Shown here piece by piece: positions 1-33,559 of a stretch of DNA of 34,080 nucleotides. A program made the translations under genes and the position numbers. Positions within the stretch are counted from its first letter, which is position 1. Each line of letters opens with the position of its first letter. This stretch comes from Fibrobacter sp. (GTDB lineage: Bacteria > Fibrobacterota > Fibrobacteria > Fibrobacterales > Fibrobacteraceae), in the NCBI GenBank assembly GCA_017615055.1, contig JAGAAW010000048.1:1-34080 (forward strand), read 5' to 3'. The notes under the pieces were generated by a model. The model did no database searches and was not told the origin of the DNA. It worked only from the letters and a program-made list of their open reading frames with translations.

Positions 1-587
1 CACACACCGAAGGACTCACCTTCGACGTGATGACCTGCGTGAACCGCGAAAACCTCAAGGAACTCCCGAAGATCCTCGACATGCTCCTGAAAATCGGCGT
101 GAAGCGTTGGCGCATCGCGACGGTGTTCCCGAAGGGCCGTGCCAAGGACAATCCGCTGTTCCAGCTCACGAACCAGGAATTCCGCCAGGTGTTCGATTTT
201 ATCCGCGAAGTCAAGAAACTGAACGTCATCAACGTGAACTACGGCTGCGAAGGTTTCCTCGGCAGCTACGAGAAGGACGCCCGCAACTACCCGTTCTTCT
301 GCCGTGCCGGCGTGAACGTGAGTTCCGTGCTTTGCGACGGCAGCATCTCCGCCTGCCCAAGCCTGCGCGGCGACTACATACAAGGTAACATCTACAAGGA
401 CGACCTGTGGGATGTGTGGCAGCACCGCTACCAGGTGATGCGCGACCGCAACTGGGCAAAAATCGGCGACTGCAAGACCTGCAAGTATTGGCGCTACTGC
501 GAAGGCTCCAGTTTGCACCTCAGGGACGAGAAAACGAAGGAACTGGCATATTGCCACGTGCAGCGCCTCGAAGACGCTGGCGCATAA
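1..587 (+). CDS. Radical SAM/SPASM protein, C-terminal part (5' truncated)
   Basis: The frame is already open at base 3, so the start and the radical SAM CxxxCxxC motif lie outside the window; the GTG/ATG at 27-32 is internal. Counting from base 27, the visible part has a SPASM-type cysteine pattern: C92, C103 and C110 in an FFC...LCDGSISAC context followed by GNI and W residues, then C149-x2-C152-x5-C158 and C176. SPASM domains bind auxiliary [4Fe-4S] clusters and usually act in maturation of peptides or proteins. The substrate is not identifiable from the fragment. The gene ends at TAA 585-587 and is followed by a hairpin terminator, so it is not part of the rel-nuo unit. The family assignment is good; the subfamily is unknown. 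Confidence 0.82.
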   Translation, partial: HTEGLTFDVMTCVNRENLKELPKILDMLLKIGVKRWRIATVFPKGRAKDNPLFQLTNQEFRQVFDFIREVKKLNVINVNYGCEGFLGSYEKDARNYPFFCRAGVNVSSVLCDGSISACPSLRGDYIQGNIYKDDLWDVWQHRYQVMRDRNWAKIGDCKTCKYWRYCEGSSLHLRDEKTKELAYCHVQRLEDAGA

Positions 588-26044: not shown

Positions 26045-27646
26045 ATGAAAAGTCCCTTTATCAAGTCTTTAGTGGTAGCAGGCGCATTGGTGTTTGCTTG
26101 GAACTGCTCCGACGAAAACGTAACCACCCCCATTGTCAATCCCCAGGGTGCTGACCAGTTTGCCGCTGTAACTACCGCCAGCTGGATTTTCAACGGCGAC
26201 CAGACATACATCATCACGCCGTCCGAAGCAGGGTTCACCGTTTCAGACAAGGCCGGCAACCCCGTCGGCACATACAATCCGGCAACAGGCATCGTTTCCG
26301 ATGGTGAAGGTGCTCCCATCGCTTCCGTACCGGACCTCTCGCAGCTCTCCGTACTTACCCCAGACCAGACGATTATCAACCCCGATGGCTCGATTACGGA
26401 CCTGGCAGGCAACCCCATCTCTGAACCTGTAGACCCGAATCCGGGCAGTCAGGAAGACCCGAATCCGGTTACCCCGGACCCGGTAATTACCAGTTCCGAA
26501 ACTCCGGTCAACCCGGAATCTTCCGCAACGACCAATCCTGACCAGCCGAAGCCCACCTCGTCTGCCACTCCTGAACAGCCGAAGTCCTCCTCCTCTGCCA
26601 AGCAGGAGCAGCCGAAATCTTCCTCGGCCAAGGCAACCGCTCAATGTACATCAGAACAGTGCCTTGACGCACCTTCGGGCACATGTGCCACCCATTACCA
26701 GAGCCTCAAGGGCCCCCACCAGGAACAATACGCCTACGACAAGTCCTGCAACATAAACTGCTACTACGACCCGAATGGCAAGGATTGCAAGGATATGGGC
26801 GCGGGCACTGCACAGCCTTCGAGCAGCACCACCCAGCCCAAGTCCTCGAGCAGCGCAAAGTCTAGTTCCTCGGCAAAGTCCTCTAGCTCCGCCAAGTCCA
26901 GCTCCAGTGCAACGCCTGCCAGTTCCAATGGTGGTAACAGCGGCAGCACCTATCAAATCAAATATGTGAACGGCGGCAAGAGCGGTTCTGGCTATGCAAC
27001 CCGTTACTGGGATTGCTGCAAGCCTCACTGCGCATGGCCCGAACACGGCGGAACCGCAAACACCTGCGACGCCAGAGGAAACAAGGTTGGTGACAAGAGC
27101 GCACGCAGCATGTGCGACGGTGGCGATGCTGGCATTTGCAGAAGCCAGTTCCCCATTGTCATTAACGACACGCTGGCATTTGCATTTGCAGCAACCCCGG
27201 GCGGAGAGAGCAACTGCGGCAAGTGCTTCGACCTCGTCTTTGATGGCGGATGCAAATACGAAGCAACAAACCTGCACAAGCAAATGAAGGGCAAGCACCT
27301 TATTGTCATGTCCAACAATGTTGGTTATGACGTGGCCGGCGGTCAATTCGACGTGATGATTCCGGGCGGCGGCTATGGTATCTTTAACGGTTGTTCCCAG
27401 AAAATGGGCTGGGGTTCCCAGGGCTCTCAATACGGAGGCCTTCTCGACGAATGCGAAAAGGAAACAGGCTACAATTCGGGCAAGTACAAGAGCTGCCTTA
27501 TCGAAAAGTGCAACAAGTCCTTCTCTTCGGACGCCGAAGCTAAGGAAGGATGCCTCTTCCTCGCCAACTGGATGAACGCCGCAGGCAACCTTACCCACAC
27601 GTATAAGGAAGTGGAATGCCCGCAGGAACTGAAGGACAGATACTAG
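26045..27646 (+). CDS. GH45 endo-beta-1,4-glucanase, cell-envelope lipoprotein or secreted
   Basis: This 533-residue enzyme hydrolyses internal cellulose bonds with inversion. The catalytic module (about 300-533) has the GH45 signature TRYWDCCKPHCAW with D323 as candidate base and QFDVMIPGGGYGIFNGC with D436 as candidate acid, plus many paired cysteines typical of subfamily A. The N-terminus (MKSPFIKSLVVAGALVFAWNC) is a signal sequence ending at C21; the lipobox is not canonical (WNC), so lipidation is uncertain. Residues 36-125 form a small unassigned domain. A Cys-rich segment (201-248, six cysteines) lies between two low-complexity linkers of the KPTSSATPEQPKSSSS and AKSSSS type (about 140-200 and 257-295). 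Monocistronic, followed by a strong terminator. Confidence 0.92.
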   Translation: MKSPFIKSLVVAGALVFAWNCSDENVTTPIVNPQGADQFAAVTTASWIFNGDQTYIITPSEAGFTVSDKAGNPVGTYNPATGIVSDGEGAPIASVPDLSQLSVLTPDQTIINPDGSITDLAGNPISEPVDPNPGSQEDPNPVTPDPVITSSETPVNPESSATTNPDQPKPTSSATPEQPKSSSSAKQEQPKSSSAKATAQCTSEQCLDAPSGTCATHYQSLKGPHQEQYAYDKSCNINCYYDPNGKDCKDMGAGTAQPSSSTTQPKSSSSAKSSSSAKSSSSAKSSSSATPASSNGGNSGSTYQIKYVNGGKSGSGYATRYWDCCKPHCAWPEHGGTANTCDARGNKVGDKSARSMCDGGDAGICRSQFPIVINDTLAFAFAATPGGESNCGKCFDLVFDGGCKYEATNLHKQMKGKHLIVMSNNVGYDVAGGQFDVMIPGGGYGIFNGCSQKMGWGSQGSQYGGLLDECEKETGYNSGKYKSCLIEKCNKSFSSDAEAKEGCLFLANWMNAAGNLTHTYKEVECPQELKDRY

Positions 27647-27730: not shown

Positions 27731-28915
27731 TTAAAACAAGTCGCGGATGGAAAGCTTCCGTAACTTAATCCTTATCGGGATAGAACGGAAGAAATTCCTC
27801 CAGTAGGCAATTTCTCCCCAAAACATCTCCACCGGAGAGAACGGGCAAAAACGCATGGCACGCCAGCGACGGCCAAACCAACGCGTTACAAAGTTGCGGT
27901 AATTGGCCCCGTAATAAAAACCAAAGTTACCCCCGGCAATAACCTTCGCAAGCATCTGCTTGCCAAGCCCTTTATCCGGTGCACAAAGCATATACGCGCG
28001 GTCCAAGGCGTATATATGCCCCAACACCCACATGAGCGCTTTTGCAGTGCGCAGAAGTCCAAACCGGCGGAGATTCTTAGACATTTCAAGCCTATCGGAA
28101 TCGTTAGCCCGCAAAAGCAGTACATAGTAGTCGGTTAATTGCTTCAGGCCTATACCACTCGAAAGCAGATGCCTCTGGATGTGCGAAAGCTGCATCGCCA
28201 AAGCAAACTTGAGTGAAGGAACGTAGAAACCTTCCGGCACAAGTTCTACACTCTCAATTTCACGGGCTAGATAGTTCTGCAATGCTCTGTTTGTAAAGGG
28301 GTTCAGGTTTCCCGAAGAGGGCTTAAAGTGTACTTCGACGTTGACTCCGTTACACTTTTGGAGCAAATGCACGTGGTGACCAGAAAGAGAAAGTTTCTCC
28401 CGAGCGAGGGCATAAAGTTCTTCACGGGACTTCCCCCGTGAAAAGAAGAATGACCCCGACGGTTCAGTGATCATCATCCCGAGTTTCTGCAACAAGGCAA
28501 CCACGCCCTCTCGCCCGCCCTCTACCCAGATATCGATATCACCCGCTTGGCGGATAAACGCATCAGGGTAAAGCCTAGCGTTTGCAGCGCCCTTCAGTAT
28601 AGCAGAACGCCTCCCCTGGTCCGCAAAAAGTTCGGTAAGCCGCTTGGCCTCATCGTTCACCATGCGGTTATGCCCACGAATCGCCTCCGCCTCGCTCGCC
28701 CACTGGAACGCGAGATCCAACGGCGGCCGCCGATCCTTCGGCAACTTGCAGACACCCGCATACGCGATGCCCACCACAGATAGCTTGGAGGCGAGAGAAT
28801 ACAAAAGAGACCACTCTTCAGCGGTCTCTACGTTGAAATTTGCAGACTCATCCTTACCCGCACCGAATGCGAGCCGAATGAGGGTAAAGAGATTACGTTC
28901 AGACAGAATACTCAC
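27731..28915 (-). CDS. NTP_transf_5-type nucleotidyltransferase
   Basis: This 394-residue protein matches the uncharacterised nucleotidyltransferase family NTP_transf_5. It has SAILKGAANARLYPD (about 105-118) followed by RQAGDIDIWV with the metal-binding D126 and D128, then the helical C-terminal half usual for the family. It begins with GTG at 28915, one base of which belongs to the TAG of the upstream short peptide (TAGTG), and CAGG lies 4 nt before, so its translation is coupled to that peptide. Members of this family occur as tailoring enzymes in some lasso-peptide clusters (paeninodin type). What it modifies here is unknown; the two short peptides upstream are the obvious candidates. Last gene of the operon. 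Confidence 0.8.
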   Translation of the reverse strand: MSILSERNLFTLIRLAFGAGKDESANFNVETAEEWSLLYSLASKLSVVGIAYAGVCKLPKDRRPPLDLAFQWASEAEAIRGHNRMVNDEAKRLTELFADQGRRSAILKGAANARLYPDAFIRQAGDIDIWVEGGREGVVALLQKLGMMITEPSGSFFFSRGKSREELYALAREKLSLSGHHVHLLQKCNGVNVEVHFKPSSGNLNPFTNRALQNYLAREIESVELVPEGFYVPSLKFALAMQLSHIQRHLLSSGIGLKQLTDYYVLLLRANDSDRLEMSKNLRRFGLLRTAKALMWVLGHIYALDRAYMLCAPDKGLGKQMLAKVIAGGNFGFYYGANYRNFVTRWFGRRWRAMRFCPFSPVEMFWGEIAYWRNFFRSIPIRIKLRKLSIRDLF

Positions 28916-29061
28916 TAAACCTGAACAGGCGTATCATTCGGATTATCGTTATAATTCAGAATAATCGTATTAGAATCAATAAGCAACAAATCACTCTTAT
29001 TCCGAAGTGAAATGACTCTTACTGATGGAGCCTCATATTCTTTTTTTTGAATAAACACCAT
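28915..29061 (-). CDS. Short peptide 2 (48 residues), candidate RiPP-like precursor
   Basis: ATG 29061 to TAG 28915, with AAAGG 7 nt before the start. The N-terminal half reads IQKKEYEAPSVRVISL, matching the leader of the 41-residue peptide upstream (KKxYExPxxxVxx[IL]). The second half is quite different: a hydrophobic LLLIDSNTIIL stretch followed by an Asn/Asp/Pro-rich end (NYNDNPNDTPVQV) without cysteine. No signal peptide of Sec type. Stop and downstream GTG overlap by one base. Too short for ordinary ORF calling. Supported as real by ribosome-binding site, coupling, and leader shared with its neighbour; role is inference. Confidence 0.7.
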   Translation of the reverse strand: MVFIQKKEYEAPSVRVISLRNKSDLLLIDSNTIILNYNDNPNDTPVQV

Positions 29062-29079
29062 ATTCACGCCTTTATAGTT

Positions 29080-29205
29080 TTATGGAGTCTGAACTTCAAA
29101 TTCATCGGGGCAAGAACCGCCACAACTACCACATAAAGGTTTTAAATCGGAAGCAATTTTAACAACCTTCATTTCTGGCTTTTCATAAGTTTTCTTTTCA
29201 TCCAT
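29080..29205 (-). CDS. Short peptide 1 (41 residues), Cys-rich candidate RiPP-like precursor
   Basis: ATG 29205 to TAA 29080, starting 6 nt after the stop of the giant surface-protein gene, with GAGG 9 nt before the ATG. Leader: MDEKKTYEKPEMKVVKIASD, containing Y7-x-x-P10. The tail has C25, C28 and C32 in LCGSCGGSCPD, a small Gly/Ser/Cys cluster, and ends EFEVQTP. Tyr-x-x-Pro leaders are bound by recognition elements in lasso-peptide and related systems, and the Cys cluster could be a modification or metal-binding site. Similar YxKP-type short peptides of unknown role occur in Bacteroidetes, so a non-RiPP function remains possible. 18 nt separate it from peptide 2. Confidence 0.7.
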   Translation of the reverse strand: MDEKKTYEKPEMKVVKIASDLKPLCGSCGGSCPDEFEVQTP

Positions 29206-29211
29206 GGTATT

Positions 29212-32200
29212 TTACCTCACAATTATGCGCTTACCATTATAGTAATATGTACCCTGGGTCGTTGGCTTGCCGTTGAGTTTACGACCACTTAAATCGTACC
29301 AGCGATCCATTTTTAGTTCGCCAGTTTTGGAATTCAACGCACCTCCACCAATAACTCGACCGTTTTTCCCAACAATTTCAATTTCGAATTCTTCCGGAAG
29401 TGTACTCAAATCAGCAAAACGTTCAACCAATCTAGACGATTTCGTTAGCACCTTAGATTCGTCATAAGCAAGGTACGCACGCATCGGCAGAACAGCCGCT
29501 GGCTGGTTTTTATTTTTAATTCTAAAGAACTTCCCTATCGTCAATCCCTTTGTCGGATTTTCTATACCAGAATACCCATATGCATAATCCCATTCTGGAT
29601 GATCTTCATTTATAACGACCGTTTCATAAGATCCTTTAAAAACCCAGCCATTATATACAACCTGTTCTGGCTCTTTTGTAATTAATGAAACAGGTTTATC
29701 CAAAACAAAGTTTATGTTTGTTTCAGAAGGAAGATAAACATAGGGACGACCCGCTTTTAATTCATTTCCGTCAGGCACCTTAACAATAAATTTCCATTTT
29801 CCCGTGGAATTATCAATCGATTCAAATTCCCAGAAATCACCACACTTAGATTTACCACATTGAACTTCATTCAAACTAACTGTAAACGGGAACATAACCG
29901 TTGACATAGCATTTACAGTAAACGTACGATTGAAAATCACATGGTCTACAACTACATTGTCGCTCTCAGGAATACTAACATCTTCTTGATTAGAGTTTTC
30001 GTTATTGATTTCAGCACGAGTACCAGTTTCATCTGTAAGAATTACGACATTGCCATAGTTCTTCACAACCTGAGCCACAACAGAGATCGTTCCAGGCACA
30101 GACTCAATATACCCTTCAAACGAAGTAGTAATGTCCACGTCTCCATCTTTAATGACAACGTTGCAAGATGCGGTCTTTTCACCATCCTTAACATCCGTCA
30201 CATGTTCACTAGAAGTTGCCGTGATTGTATATCCCCAAGGATTATCCGCAGCAATTTCACATTCTGCACTGTGCGGATTTGCATCATATTCAAACACCTG
30301 CGATATTGCAGTGACTGTAATCGTCGACGGAACAGGACTCCACTGAGCCATAAGCGTCCTATTGCCGAAGGAGCCCGCCGGCAAAGCAGTCACAACGTCG
30401 CCGGTCACTCCATCAAGCCAACCTGCGAACGAGAATCCAACTCTTTCATTCGGAGTAGCAAGAGCAAGTTCGCCCGATTCAACCGTAAACGTGAAGGAAG
30501 TATTCCCTTCCATCGAGCCACCAGCCAAATCGTATGTTGCGGTATATTCAGCAGCAGTCCAACTAGCTGTGAAGGACTTTGCTCCCGTGGAGTTAAGCGC
30601 AATCGCTGTTACAGCTTCGCCATTAGCATCATCCGTCCACCCGGCAAAAACATAACCAGACTTTGTCGGAATAGGAAGATCAAACTCAGACTCAACAGTG
30701 TAAGTCACAGGAGTCCCTTCAGGAAGGGCGCCTCCATCGAGATTATATGTAATAATGTATTCGTCAGCCTTCCAATACGGATACAAGGTCAAGTCAGCAT
30801 TTTCATCATAGGAAGCACCCAGGTCATAATCTTTGCCACCTTTATCAGTCGTAGACCAGCCATCAAGAGTATAGTTTTCGCGCACATACTTGTCGATAGC
30901 GTCCTTGAACGTATACAATTGATCCTTAGTTTTATATTCTGTCAAATCCTTTGCCCCAGAGCCACTCAACACTTCACCAGGTTTATACACAATTTTATTT
31001 TGCCACTTGGCATAGAGCGTCAAATCCGCATCAATGTTACGGATTTCTTCCACCTGATTTTCGAAGGTATTTTCTTTGAACCATCCGGCAAAAGTGAAAC
31101 CCGTATAGGATGCTTTATTAAGAGTAAAAGGTACCGGTCCCATGTATGACGATATGTTGTTAACATTGTTCGTACCGCCATTCAGTTCGTAGTCAACATG
31201 ATATGTATTGCACGTCCAATGAGGGTAGAGCGTATCAGTGACATTTTTCTTATATATCGCACCAAGCGCGAATTCTATGTCGCCATTATCTGTTCCAGCC
31301 CAACCATCCTGAGTACAACCTTTAATCTTGAATTCCTCCACGGCACCTTTAAGCGTTGTATCCCTACCCCATTCCTTTATGGCCGCAGAAATCGTCCCAG
31401 AAACATTATGACCGGAAAGATAAACAATATAAAGCTTAGTCGGTTTCCACTGTCCATATATGGTCAAATCACCATAATCGCCTGCGACAGTCTGAGTAGC
31501 CCGCTGAGTAAAACCGTCATCATAGTACCAACCGGCAAAATCATACCCCTCCTTGGTCGGATTCTCCGGGAAGACAATTCCATGTTCAATATCATATTCC
31601 GATGAAGAAACCGAACCGCCATCATTATAGGTAACGGTATAATTTTTCAAGTCCCAATGAGCATAGAGAACAGTGCTTGAGTGAATTTTTGTTTCGGCAA
31701 AATTAAAGCTAGAAGCTGCACCATCAAGATACCATCCAGCAAACACATAACCCGAGTCAACTTCGATGGTTTCCGCATTCGGTTCTGGGACCAAATCATT
31801 TTCATCGACTTCTACAAATTCAACCTTGGTTTTGCCATGACCATCAGCATGGAACGTCACCGTATATGTTTCTTTCGCGGTCCAAATGGCATAGAGAGTC
31901 GTGTCTTTTGTTGCAAACGTATTCAAAGCATTCAAGTCGATAGCCTGTTCAACAGAGGCGCCCTTGTCAAAAGCCCAGCCCCTAAAATACATCCACACAC
32001 CACCATCACAATTTTCACCATTAACAGTACCCGTGCAATAAGTTTCAGGAAGCGGTTCAATTCCTTCAACGGTAATCGGATCACCCGGATCAACAATCTT
32101 GGTTTTGACCGTAGGGAAAGGTTGTGTTTCAGAAGGGAAATAGCCATCATCAGCATCAAAGGCAATAGTAAAAGCCAACGTCCACACGGCATAAATCGTA

Positions 32201-33480
32201 GTAGATGCAGTCGCGTTTCCCAAACTTGCCGAGGGAGCCAGGGCAGTAGATGTTGTAGCCCAACCAAGGAACTTGTAACCTTCGCGAGCAGGCTTTGTAA
32301 TTTCGTCATCGGTAATCAGAACATTTTTTGCAACTACCTTGTGCGTTTTCGCGCCTTCGCCGAAGGCTCCTTCATTTGCATCAAATGTTACCATGTAACC
32401 ATCGGAACCATTCAAGGAAACGATATCTTGTCCAACAGACCATACACTAGATGAAGCATTTTTACAAACACCATCCTCCCAGGTTCCTCCATTCAAGCCA
32501 CAAACCACATCTTCGGAATTAACATCAGGCACACCATTCGCCTGTCCTGTCGTGATATTTCCCTTTCCAATACCACCTGCAACAACATCCGAGTCATAGT
32601 AGGTGTTTTGGACATTCAACCCATCCTTGGTGCTTTGCCCGACAACGCCTCCAGACTTGCCATTGCCTGCATTGACTATGCCAGTCCCAGTATATGCGCA
32701 AGAATTAATGTTGACATTGCCCTTCGTATAACCAGCAATACCACCAACAAAAGCATTATTTCCACTCACATATATGGTAACTTCACTCACGCAATTTTCA
32801 ATCGTACCGCTGGCAGAATTGCCAACAATACCACCAACCCCCTGTCCATCACCGCTCGTAGTTATTGAACCCGTAACATAAATTCCAGAAATGGTCCCCG
32901 CTTCCTGCCAACCAACAAGGGAACCTACCGAAATCGGCTTTCCCTTACCCAAGATACTGCCTTCACCATTGGAAGCCTGGATATCGACAACTTCCAAAAT
33001 CAAGTCCTTTACAACACCACCCGTACTTAACGTTCCGATAAAACCAACATTCTGGCCATTACAATTCGGTTTTTTATCTTTTTCCGTGCAATAAACATTG
33101 GTTTGCACGTTAGCAAGTTGAGCCCCATCTGTATACAAGCCAGAAATCTTGTGACCATCGCCATCAAAAGTTCCCTTGAACTTGGTATCGCCCTTACCAG
33201 AAGCAATCGGCATCCACAGATGACCGCCCAAATCCATGTCTTTCAGCAACTTAGCATTAATGTTTGACCGAATATTTGCATTATCCTTTGTAGTCGTATC
33301 CGTCTCCGCAGCAAACCAGGCCAATTGCGCTTCGTTCGCAATCAAATAGAACTGTTTCCCGTCAATGGTGGCAGAATCTGGCCTTTCCTTCGAAACTCCA
33401 TCCCATGCACCAAAACTCTGGCCGAAGACGGTCAGTAAAACGAATAGGGTCAGAAACTTAATGTCTTTTAAGTAATGCAT
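29212..33480 (-). CDS. Giant InlB/B-repeat surface protein with GLUG motifs and T9SS-like C-terminus
   Basis: This 1422-residue exported protein has a signal peptide (MHYLKDIKFLTLFVLLTVFGQSFG, cleaved before AWDG). The first 300 residues have GLUG-type repeats (VGGIVGNSASGTIENC, FVGGIAGYTKGNVNINSC). About 360-1045 hold nine InlB-like B repeats, each of the form YTVTYxxxGG ... GYxFAGWYxD ... TLYAxW. Residues about 1046-1340 form an unassigned beta-rich region. The last roughly 30 residues (MDRWYDLSGRKLNGKP ... GTYYYNGKRIIVR) resemble the C-terminal sorting signal of type IX secretion. The frame is open 23 codons upstream, but ATG 33480 has GAGGG before it and starts the signal peptide. A+T-rich relative to the nuo region. 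Probably an adhesin or surface scaffold. Confidence 0.88.
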   Translation of the reverse strand: MHYLKDIKFLTLFVLLTVFGQSFGAWDGVSKERPDSATIDGKQFYLIANEAQLAWFAAETDTTTKDNANIRSNINAKLLKDMDLGGHLWMPIASGKGDTKFKGTFDGDGHKISGLYTDGAQLANVQTNVYCTEKDKKPNCNGQNVGFIGTLSTGGVVKDLILEVVDIQASNGEGSILGKGKPISVGSLVGWQEAGTISGIYVTGSITTSGDGQGVGGIVGNSASGTIENCVSEVTIYVSGNNAFVGGIAGYTKGNVNINSCAYTGTGIVNAGNGKSGGVVGQSTKDGLNVQNTYYDSDVVAGGIGKGNITTGQANGVPDVNSEDVVCGLNGGTWEDGVCKNASSSVWSVGQDIVSLNGSDGYMVTFDANEGAFGEGAKTHKVVAKNVLITDDEITKPAREGYKFLGWATTSTALAPSASLGNATASTTIYAVWTLAFTIAFDADDGYFPSETQPFPTVKTKIVDPGDPITVEGIEPLPETYCTGTVNGENCDGGVWMYFRGWAFDKGASVEQAIDLNALNTFATKDTTLYAIWTAKETYTVTFHADGHGKTKVEFVEVDENDLVPEPNAETIEVDSGYVFAGWYLDGAASSFNFAETKIHSSTVLYAHWDLKNYTVTYNDGGSVSSSEYDIEHGIVFPENPTKEGYDFAGWYYDDGFTQRATQTVAGDYGDLTIYGQWKPTKLYIVYLSGHNVSGTISAAIKEWGRDTTLKGAVEEFKIKGCTQDGWAGTDNGDIEFALGAIYKKNVTDTLYPHWTCNTYHVDYELNGGTNNVNNISSYMGPVPFTLNKASYTGFTFAGWFKENTFENQVEEIRNIDADLTLYAKWQNKIVYKPGEVLSGSGAKDLTEYKTKDQLYTFKDAIDKYVRENYTLDGWSTTDKGGKDYDLGASYDENADLTLYPYWKADEYIITYNLDGGALPEGTPVTYTVESEFDLPIPTKSGYVFAGWTDDANGEAVTAIALNSTGAKSFTASWTAAEYTATYDLAGGSMEGNTSFTFTVESGELALATPNERVGFSFAGWLDGVTGDVVTALPAGSFGNRTLMAQWSPVPSTITVTAISQVFEYDANPHSAECEIAADNPWGYTITATSSEHVTDVKDGEKTASCNVVIKDGDVDITTSFEGYIESVPGTISVVAQVVKNYGNVVILTDETGTRAEINNENSNQEDVSIPESDNVVVDHVIFNRTFTVNAMSTVMFPFTVSLNEVQCGKSKCGDFWEFESIDNSTGKWKFIVKVPDGNELKAGRPYVYLPSETNINFVLDKPVSLITKEPEQVVYNGWVFKGSYETVVINEDHPEWDYAYGYSGIENPTKGLTIGKFFRIKNKNQPAAVLPMRAYLAYDESKVLTKSSRLVERFADLSTLPEEFEIEIVGKNGRVIGGGALNSKTGELKMDRWYDLSGRKLNGKPTTQGTYYYNGKRIIVR

Positions 33481-33507
33481 ATAGCTAGCCCTCTTTTTTT
33501 GTAAAAA

Positions 33508-33536
33508 ATAGTAAATTTCGCCGTTTTTAGTGTAAA
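33508..33536 (-). promoter_or_regulatory. Promoter of the surface-protein/short-peptide operon
   Basis: Minus strand: TTTACA (33536-33531), exactly 17 nt, TACTAT (33513-33508), leaving a leader of about 20 nt with GAGGG before ATG 33480. Good match in both boxes and spacing. Confidence 0.7.
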
Positions 33537-33559
33537 GTATTACAAACAAAGTGCCGAAT

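Follow-up and report, generated by a model that had tools for sequence, protein, structure and literature searches.

Linear polyphosphorylated peptides (LPP) were described by Popov et al. (2026) from the lpp cluster of Paenibacillus alginolyticus and were presented as restricted to the Bacillota; the roles of the kinase, the RRE and the protease of this system were shown by experiment (PMC13381572). The LPP leader has the consensus YxxPxVLxHQxIxFETxxS, with a Tyr-to-Ser spacing of 18, the Ser3 of the core is phosphorylated, the leader is cleaved two residues before this Ser3, and no activity of LppN could be detected in the heterologous host that was used (PMC13381572). Tailoring of a Ser by a kinase and an enzyme of the NTP_transf_5 type is also documented for paeninodin and pseudomycoidin, and in pseudomycoidin PsmN was linked to the addition of hexose on the phosphorylated Ser (PMC8498205).

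Here, we considered a 34,080-nucleotide stretch of Fibrobacter sp. DNA (hereafter the window), which is contig C156 of a genome of 2.9 Mb in 170 contigs (G000, 77% complete) and in which the original prediction had pointed to two short minus-strand ORFs as a RiPP-like precursor pair. From the anatomy and the homology of these ORFs, we infer that they do encode RiPP precursors and, quite likely, precursors of linear, leader-cleaved and probably Ser-phosphorylated peptides of an LPP-like pathway, the genes of which lie in two places.

Each ORF is preceded by a purine-rich ribosome-binding site, as predicted (Table 1), and the expected gap of 18 nt between them holds with the ATG start of precursor 2. 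This peptide can also be read from a GTG at 29067 (50 aa, 28915-29067), but the ATG is the likelier start since AAAGG lies 7 nt before it, versus 1 nt before the GTG, and since the closest relative has a TTG at the GTG position. The common leader KKxYExPxxxVxx[IL] could be confirmed near the N-terminus of both ORFs, which are adjacent and on the same strand, for a mean of 0.07 ORFs with this motif in third-order Markov copies of the window. Precursor 1 starts 6 nt past the stop codon of the upstream gene (1445 aa) and, from their sequences, the surface protein, precursor 1, precursor 2 and NTP_transf_5 genes read as one operon. A gene encoding a GH45 family glycoside hydrolase (26045-27646) is convergent with these genes and has a homologue at the corresponding position in the syntenic relatives. 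At the edge of the window (27-587) lies the C-terminal portion of a radical SAM/SPASM protein (TIGR04133, rSAM_w_lipo), for which no link to the peptides was seen.

Table 1. Features of the putative peptide operon, numbered from the first nucleotide of the window.
Feature	Positions	Strand	Description
Exported adhesin-like protein, seven InlB-type (Flg_new) repeats	29212..33549	minus	PF09479 2e-60; first gene of the putative operon; same arrangement in relatives
28-residue C-terminal tail of the adhesin-like protein	29215..29298	minus	YDLSGRKLNGKPTTQGTYYYNGKRIIVR; common to other genes preceding precursors
Ribosome-binding site of precursor 1	29215..29218	minus	GAGG; overlaps the last codons of the surface-protein gene; basis: sequence
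Precursor peptide 1	29080..29205	minus	ATG start, 41 aa; leader KKTYEKPEMKVVKI; Ser27 = Tyr+20; tail CGSCGGSCPDEFEVQTP
Ribosome-binding site of precursor 2	29069..29073	minus	AAAGG; basis: sequence
Precursor peptide 2	28915..29061	minus	ATG 29061, 48 aa; Ser = Tyr+21; tail SNTIILNYNDNPNDTPVQV
NTP_transf_5 nucleotidyltransferase	27731..28915	minus	394 aa; PF14907 5e-44; GDIDIW motif; start within the precursor 2 stop codon

Using a search profile built from 35 sequences, we collected 384 matches in 76 of the 111 genomes of the bacterial family (1-13 per positive genome, with a median of 4 per Fibrobacter genome); precursor 1 of the window matched at 2e-14 in the genome search, and precursor 2 matches the profile at 5e-10. 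These peptides are of about 36-60 aa, with a leader of the form KKxYxxPxMxVVxL...LLxxS. Throughout 82 non-redundant precursors the Tyr and the Pro three residues on are invariant, a Ser is found at +19, +20 or +21 from the Tyr in 81 (mostly at +20), Lys occupies position -3 in 78 and position -2 in 75, and Leu prevails at +16 and +17, while the tails (11-33 residues) are acidic, with a median charge of -3. Scans of the tested peptides against Pfam and NCBIfam gave no useful match, so that routine annotation is likely to overlook such peptides. Two more orphan precursors were observed in the window genome (L034 on C168 and L035 on C114), 3' of genes for larger proteins and without adjoining NTP_transf_5.

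Identity among the 82 precursors is 41% in the leader (16% when shuffled) versus 21% in the tail (17% when shuffled), a contrast that is partly circular because the relatives were gathered with a profile or pattern containing the leader. The less biased part of this comparison comes from the syntenic loci of G020, G036, G080, G081 and G087, recognised by the surface protein upstream, the 394-aa NTP_transf_5 and the convergent GH45 gene. The leader is kept and the tail changed in G081, G036, G087 and G020; in G080, the closest relative, precursor 1 differs by two residues, which both fall in the tail (dN 0.02 and dS 0.14, on few substitutions), and precursor 2 is identical except for the GTG/TTG codon. 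We looked in the homologous loci for broken ORFs, or for a leader conserved no better than the tail, and found neither. The tails of the two window ORFs differ from each other, as had been noticed, but neither is unique: NTIILNYNDNP of precursor 2 is close to NCIILNYNENP of the second peptide in L052, and DEFEVQTP of precursor 1 to DSFEVIIKDRP of a syntenic relative.

The pair is also genetically tied to the surface-protein gene, a link that was absent from the original prediction and that appears to be new. A same-strand gene ending in [FYVI]D[LMI]xGR is found within 400 nt upstream of 71 of the 82 precursors, which often lie at 40 nt or less from the adhesin-like gene, against a background of 37 among 636 genes of the same regions for this loose pattern. 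A strict profile of the 28-residue tail retrieved only 2-7 genes per genome in five genomes, 18 in total, and every one of them is followed by a precursor. The upstream partners have signal-like N-termini and carry InlB-type repeats in the eight cases scanned (8/8); the adhesin-like protein of the window gave no match to an NCBIfam sorting-domain model. Across the genus, the numbers of precursors and of tails vary together (Spearman 0.75, uncorrected for relatedness). All this would agree with processed peptides that are partners of the upstream adhesin, which they would modify, anchor or diversify at the surface, rather than free products, a purpose compatible with LPP-like maturation; a joint surface function of peptide and adhesin may be the most interesting reading of the linkage. 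We nevertheless keep this role as a tentative possibility, since co-transcription alone could account for the adjacency and since many tail genes have no precursor. Among 40 more tail genes, picked by hand so that none had a precursor listed beside it beforehand, about 15 have one on inspection (13 by script, one of them spurious, and three missed by the pattern). A strict one-to-one pairing of tail gene and precursor was dropped on this larger sample. The tail also occurs without precursors in two gene families and in G100 (L271) and G101 (L251), two genomes of another genus of the family that have no protease either, so that in these genomes the tail stands apart from the peptide system.

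Many Fibrobacter loci show the gene order precursor(s)-NTP_transf_5-HprK-like kinase-signal-peptidase-like protease-PqqD (RRE)-ABC exporter, typically with a kinase of about 300 aa, a protease of about 150 aa and a PqqD of 89 aa. By contrast, kinase, protease, RRE and exporter are not beside the precursors in the window and its syntenic relatives, and the locus could for this reason be taken for a relic, which would have lost the processing genes once nearby and kept NTP_transf_5 and precursors that are not matured any more. We find this unlikely, as another contig of the same genome, C136 (L160), carries a processing operon with overlapping frames and intact motifs, encoding a kinase of 294 aa, a protease of 149 aa, a PqqD of 89 aa and an ABC protein of 557 aa; moreover the DxD of the window NTP_transf_5 is intact, the precursor ORFs are open and dN is low relative to dS in G080 (few substitutions). 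The C136 cassette has no NTP_transf_5, which is present in the window, and the system is thus split over two contigs in this genome. In G020, G036, G080, G081 and G087 both parts share one contig, at distances from about 11 kb (G020) to about 75 kb (G080), which makes mis-binning unlikely and the split a matter of genome arrangement. The pair is one of several dispersed sets, which rely on processing enzymes from another place in the genome.

Kinase, protease and short stand-alone PqqD are each present once in nearly every positive genome, and precursors and protease go together: 71 genomes have both, 5 precursors only, 2 the protease only and 33 neither (of 111, shared ancestry ignored). The window genome encodes a stand-alone RRE (PqqD) next to a kinase, an exporter and a protein resembling leader peptidases; this set, along with the open ORFs and better-kept leader of the homologous loci, supports the precursor pair that had been proposed. 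At G020:C2:368306-369161, in a genome rated 100% complete, the kinase is spread across two frames, through either a frameshift or an error in the sequence.

The kinases conserve a Walker A motif, GKSGTGKST, and NDDNPVVR, both intact on C136, and match HprK models weakly (NCBIfam TIGR04352 at 3e-4, Pfam at 0.02); on these motifs and this weak profile similarity, the protein qualifies as a predicted HprK-like kinase. The C136 protease carries NGRSM, YVIHR and MGDGN, corresponding to Ser, His and Asp residues that are conserved in A4, and the protease of L048 matches TIGR02228 at 3e-5, under the curated cut-off. Outside the seed group, proteases and PqqDs could escape our narrow motif pattern, and the ones that did were assessed by visual inspection of their sequences. 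The discrete PqqD of G000 matches PF05402 at 53.6 bits; Asn35 and Asp74 are invariant in six Fibrobacter copies and were equated by position with N33 and D70 of LppB. An AF2 model of the C136 PqqD (pLDDT 86) displays an RRE-like fold, its eight best PDB matches being the lasso RREs TbiB1 and TfuB1 (in leader-peptide complexes) and PqqD (E 0.02-0.17). The exporter copies of L048 and L049 match ABC_membrane and ABC_tran, and the C136 copy has a Walker A motif.

NTP_transf_5 genes are present in 78 of the 111 genomes, many of them directly downstream of a peptide of the family, and the window copy is the sole one in its genome. The DxD is invariant. A sequence search of the PDB gave no match, and an AF2 model (pLDDT 79) gave a weak nucleotidyltransferase-like match to 5uvd (prob 1.0, E 0.004, TM 0.31 by query); as the structural matches are weak, we propose no substrate for this enzyme. 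Between the window (27731-28915) and G080 (L172, 8220-9398), the N-terminal end of NTP_transf_5 is nearly identical and the middle much more different, with adjoining precursors that differ by 2-5 nt, a pattern suggestive of a mosaic enzyme shaped by recombination.

The YxxP leader had suggested a lasso peptide system, with a lasso cyclase that would turn the tails into threaded rings, and YxxP leaders, RRE, HprK-like kinase and NTP_transf_5 are indeed known in lasso clusters too. The phosphorylated lasso peptides of the paeninodin and pseudomycoidin type share with the Fibrobacter system the HprK-like kinase, the NTP transferase, the discrete RRE and the ABC exporter (PMC8498205). Unlike them, however, this system has YxxP in place of WxxP and a protease of the signal-peptidase type; the lasso B2 (transglutaminase-like) peptidase was over the cut-off in none of the 111 genomes, and no macrolactam cyclase (asparagine-synthase-like) was seen beside the cassettes examined, at the level of the loci. 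The class suggested by the genes is LPP-like instead, and we regard lasso precursors as very improbable. That the ORFs are due to chance or mis-calling, as their shortness and the several possible start codons of precursor 2 might suggest, can practically be dismissed given two motif-bearing ORFs for 0.07 expected and the hundreds of homologues that share this leader.

The LPP-like reading of the pair can be followed through the steps of a pathway, which we infer from the gene content, linkage, conservation, intact catalytic motifs and RRE-like fold of the PqqD model described above. Both peptides would be translated in an operon with the exported adhesin-like protein and the nucleotidyltransferase, and the PqqD-type RRE encoded on C136 would bind the KKxYxxP part of their leader. 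The adjoining HprK-like kinase would then phosphorylate the conserved Ser at Tyr+20/21, a site placed by analogy, and the NTP_transf_5 encoded beside the peptides may add a further group to the Ser phosphate, as PsmN does in pseudomycoidin. The signal-peptidase-like protease, with its Ser/His/Asp residues, would cut the leader off just before the Ser (again placed by analogy), and the MsbA-like ABC protein would export the acidic and variable tail peptide, possibly to act at the cell surface. One set of kinase, protease, RRE and exporter per genome would serve several dispersed precursors, most of them behind a surface-protein gene.

When named genomes were scanned with the protease profile, matches were recovered, beside Fibrobacter loci, in Prevotella, Bacteroides, Paludibacteraceae, Rikenellaceae and other Bacteroidales, and in many of the Bacteroidota matches kinase, protease, PqqD and exporter are found together. 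The Fibrobacter precursor profile had matches in 19 of 24 tested genomes (best 2e-9, with E up to 1, the weak ones including chance matches), for example MKKQYIVPDMQIVPLKSQGALLSAS and MKKQYIKPETEVVKLQQQCQLLAGS, and several of these Bacteroidota matches lie behind genes with CTD-like C-termini, a count to which no background rate is attached. No report of the cassette in Fibrobacterota or Bacteroidota was found in a literature search that had few subscription papers within reach; on these sequence matches, the cassette and the similar precursors of Bacteroidota appear to be new. If the LPP-like reading is true, the LPP class would be broadened to two further phyla, Fibrobacterota, where precursors number in the hundreds, and Bacteroidota, and would gain new study hosts. 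The linkage to surface-protein genes gives a specific clue to what LPP-type peptides may do, one that can be put to the test. It is conceivable, although we lean somewhat away from it, that several InlB-repeat adhesins each have their own RiPP companion, matured in trans by the single set of the genome, in a phosphopeptide pathway for surface-protein display or recognition in both phyla rather than for a free antibiotic.

The C-terminal tail of the upstream genes is comparable to the T9SS C-terminal domain, or basic terminal domain, of Fibrobacter cellulases (PMC6851124), in that exported surface proteins end in a basic stretch in both cases, but it differs in its 28-residue type and in the few genes per genome that carry it. 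For the peptides and their enzymes, the closest comparison is with LPP. The system differs from it by its phyla (Fibrobacterota and Bacteroidota versus Bacillota), by tails of 11-33 aa in Fibrobacter versus a core of 45 aa, by a leader that matches only the YxxP and the Ser of the LPP consensus with a Tyr-Ser distance mostly of 20 (also 21) versus 18, and by the several dispersed precursors per processing set that are tied to surface-protein genes; the single cluster typical of LPP is seen in many Fibrobacter loci, whereas the window genome has its genes on two contigs. Both have a leader peptidase resembling archaeal-type signal peptidases (Ser/His/Asp), a discrete RRE, an HprK-like kinase, an NTP transferase and an MsbA-like exporter, and both have a YxxP leader followed by a conserved Ser and a variable C-terminus; LPP has no cyclase, and none was seen beside the Fibrobacter cassettes examined. 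Judged from its genes alone, the Fibrobacter system is likely a variant that works like LPP.
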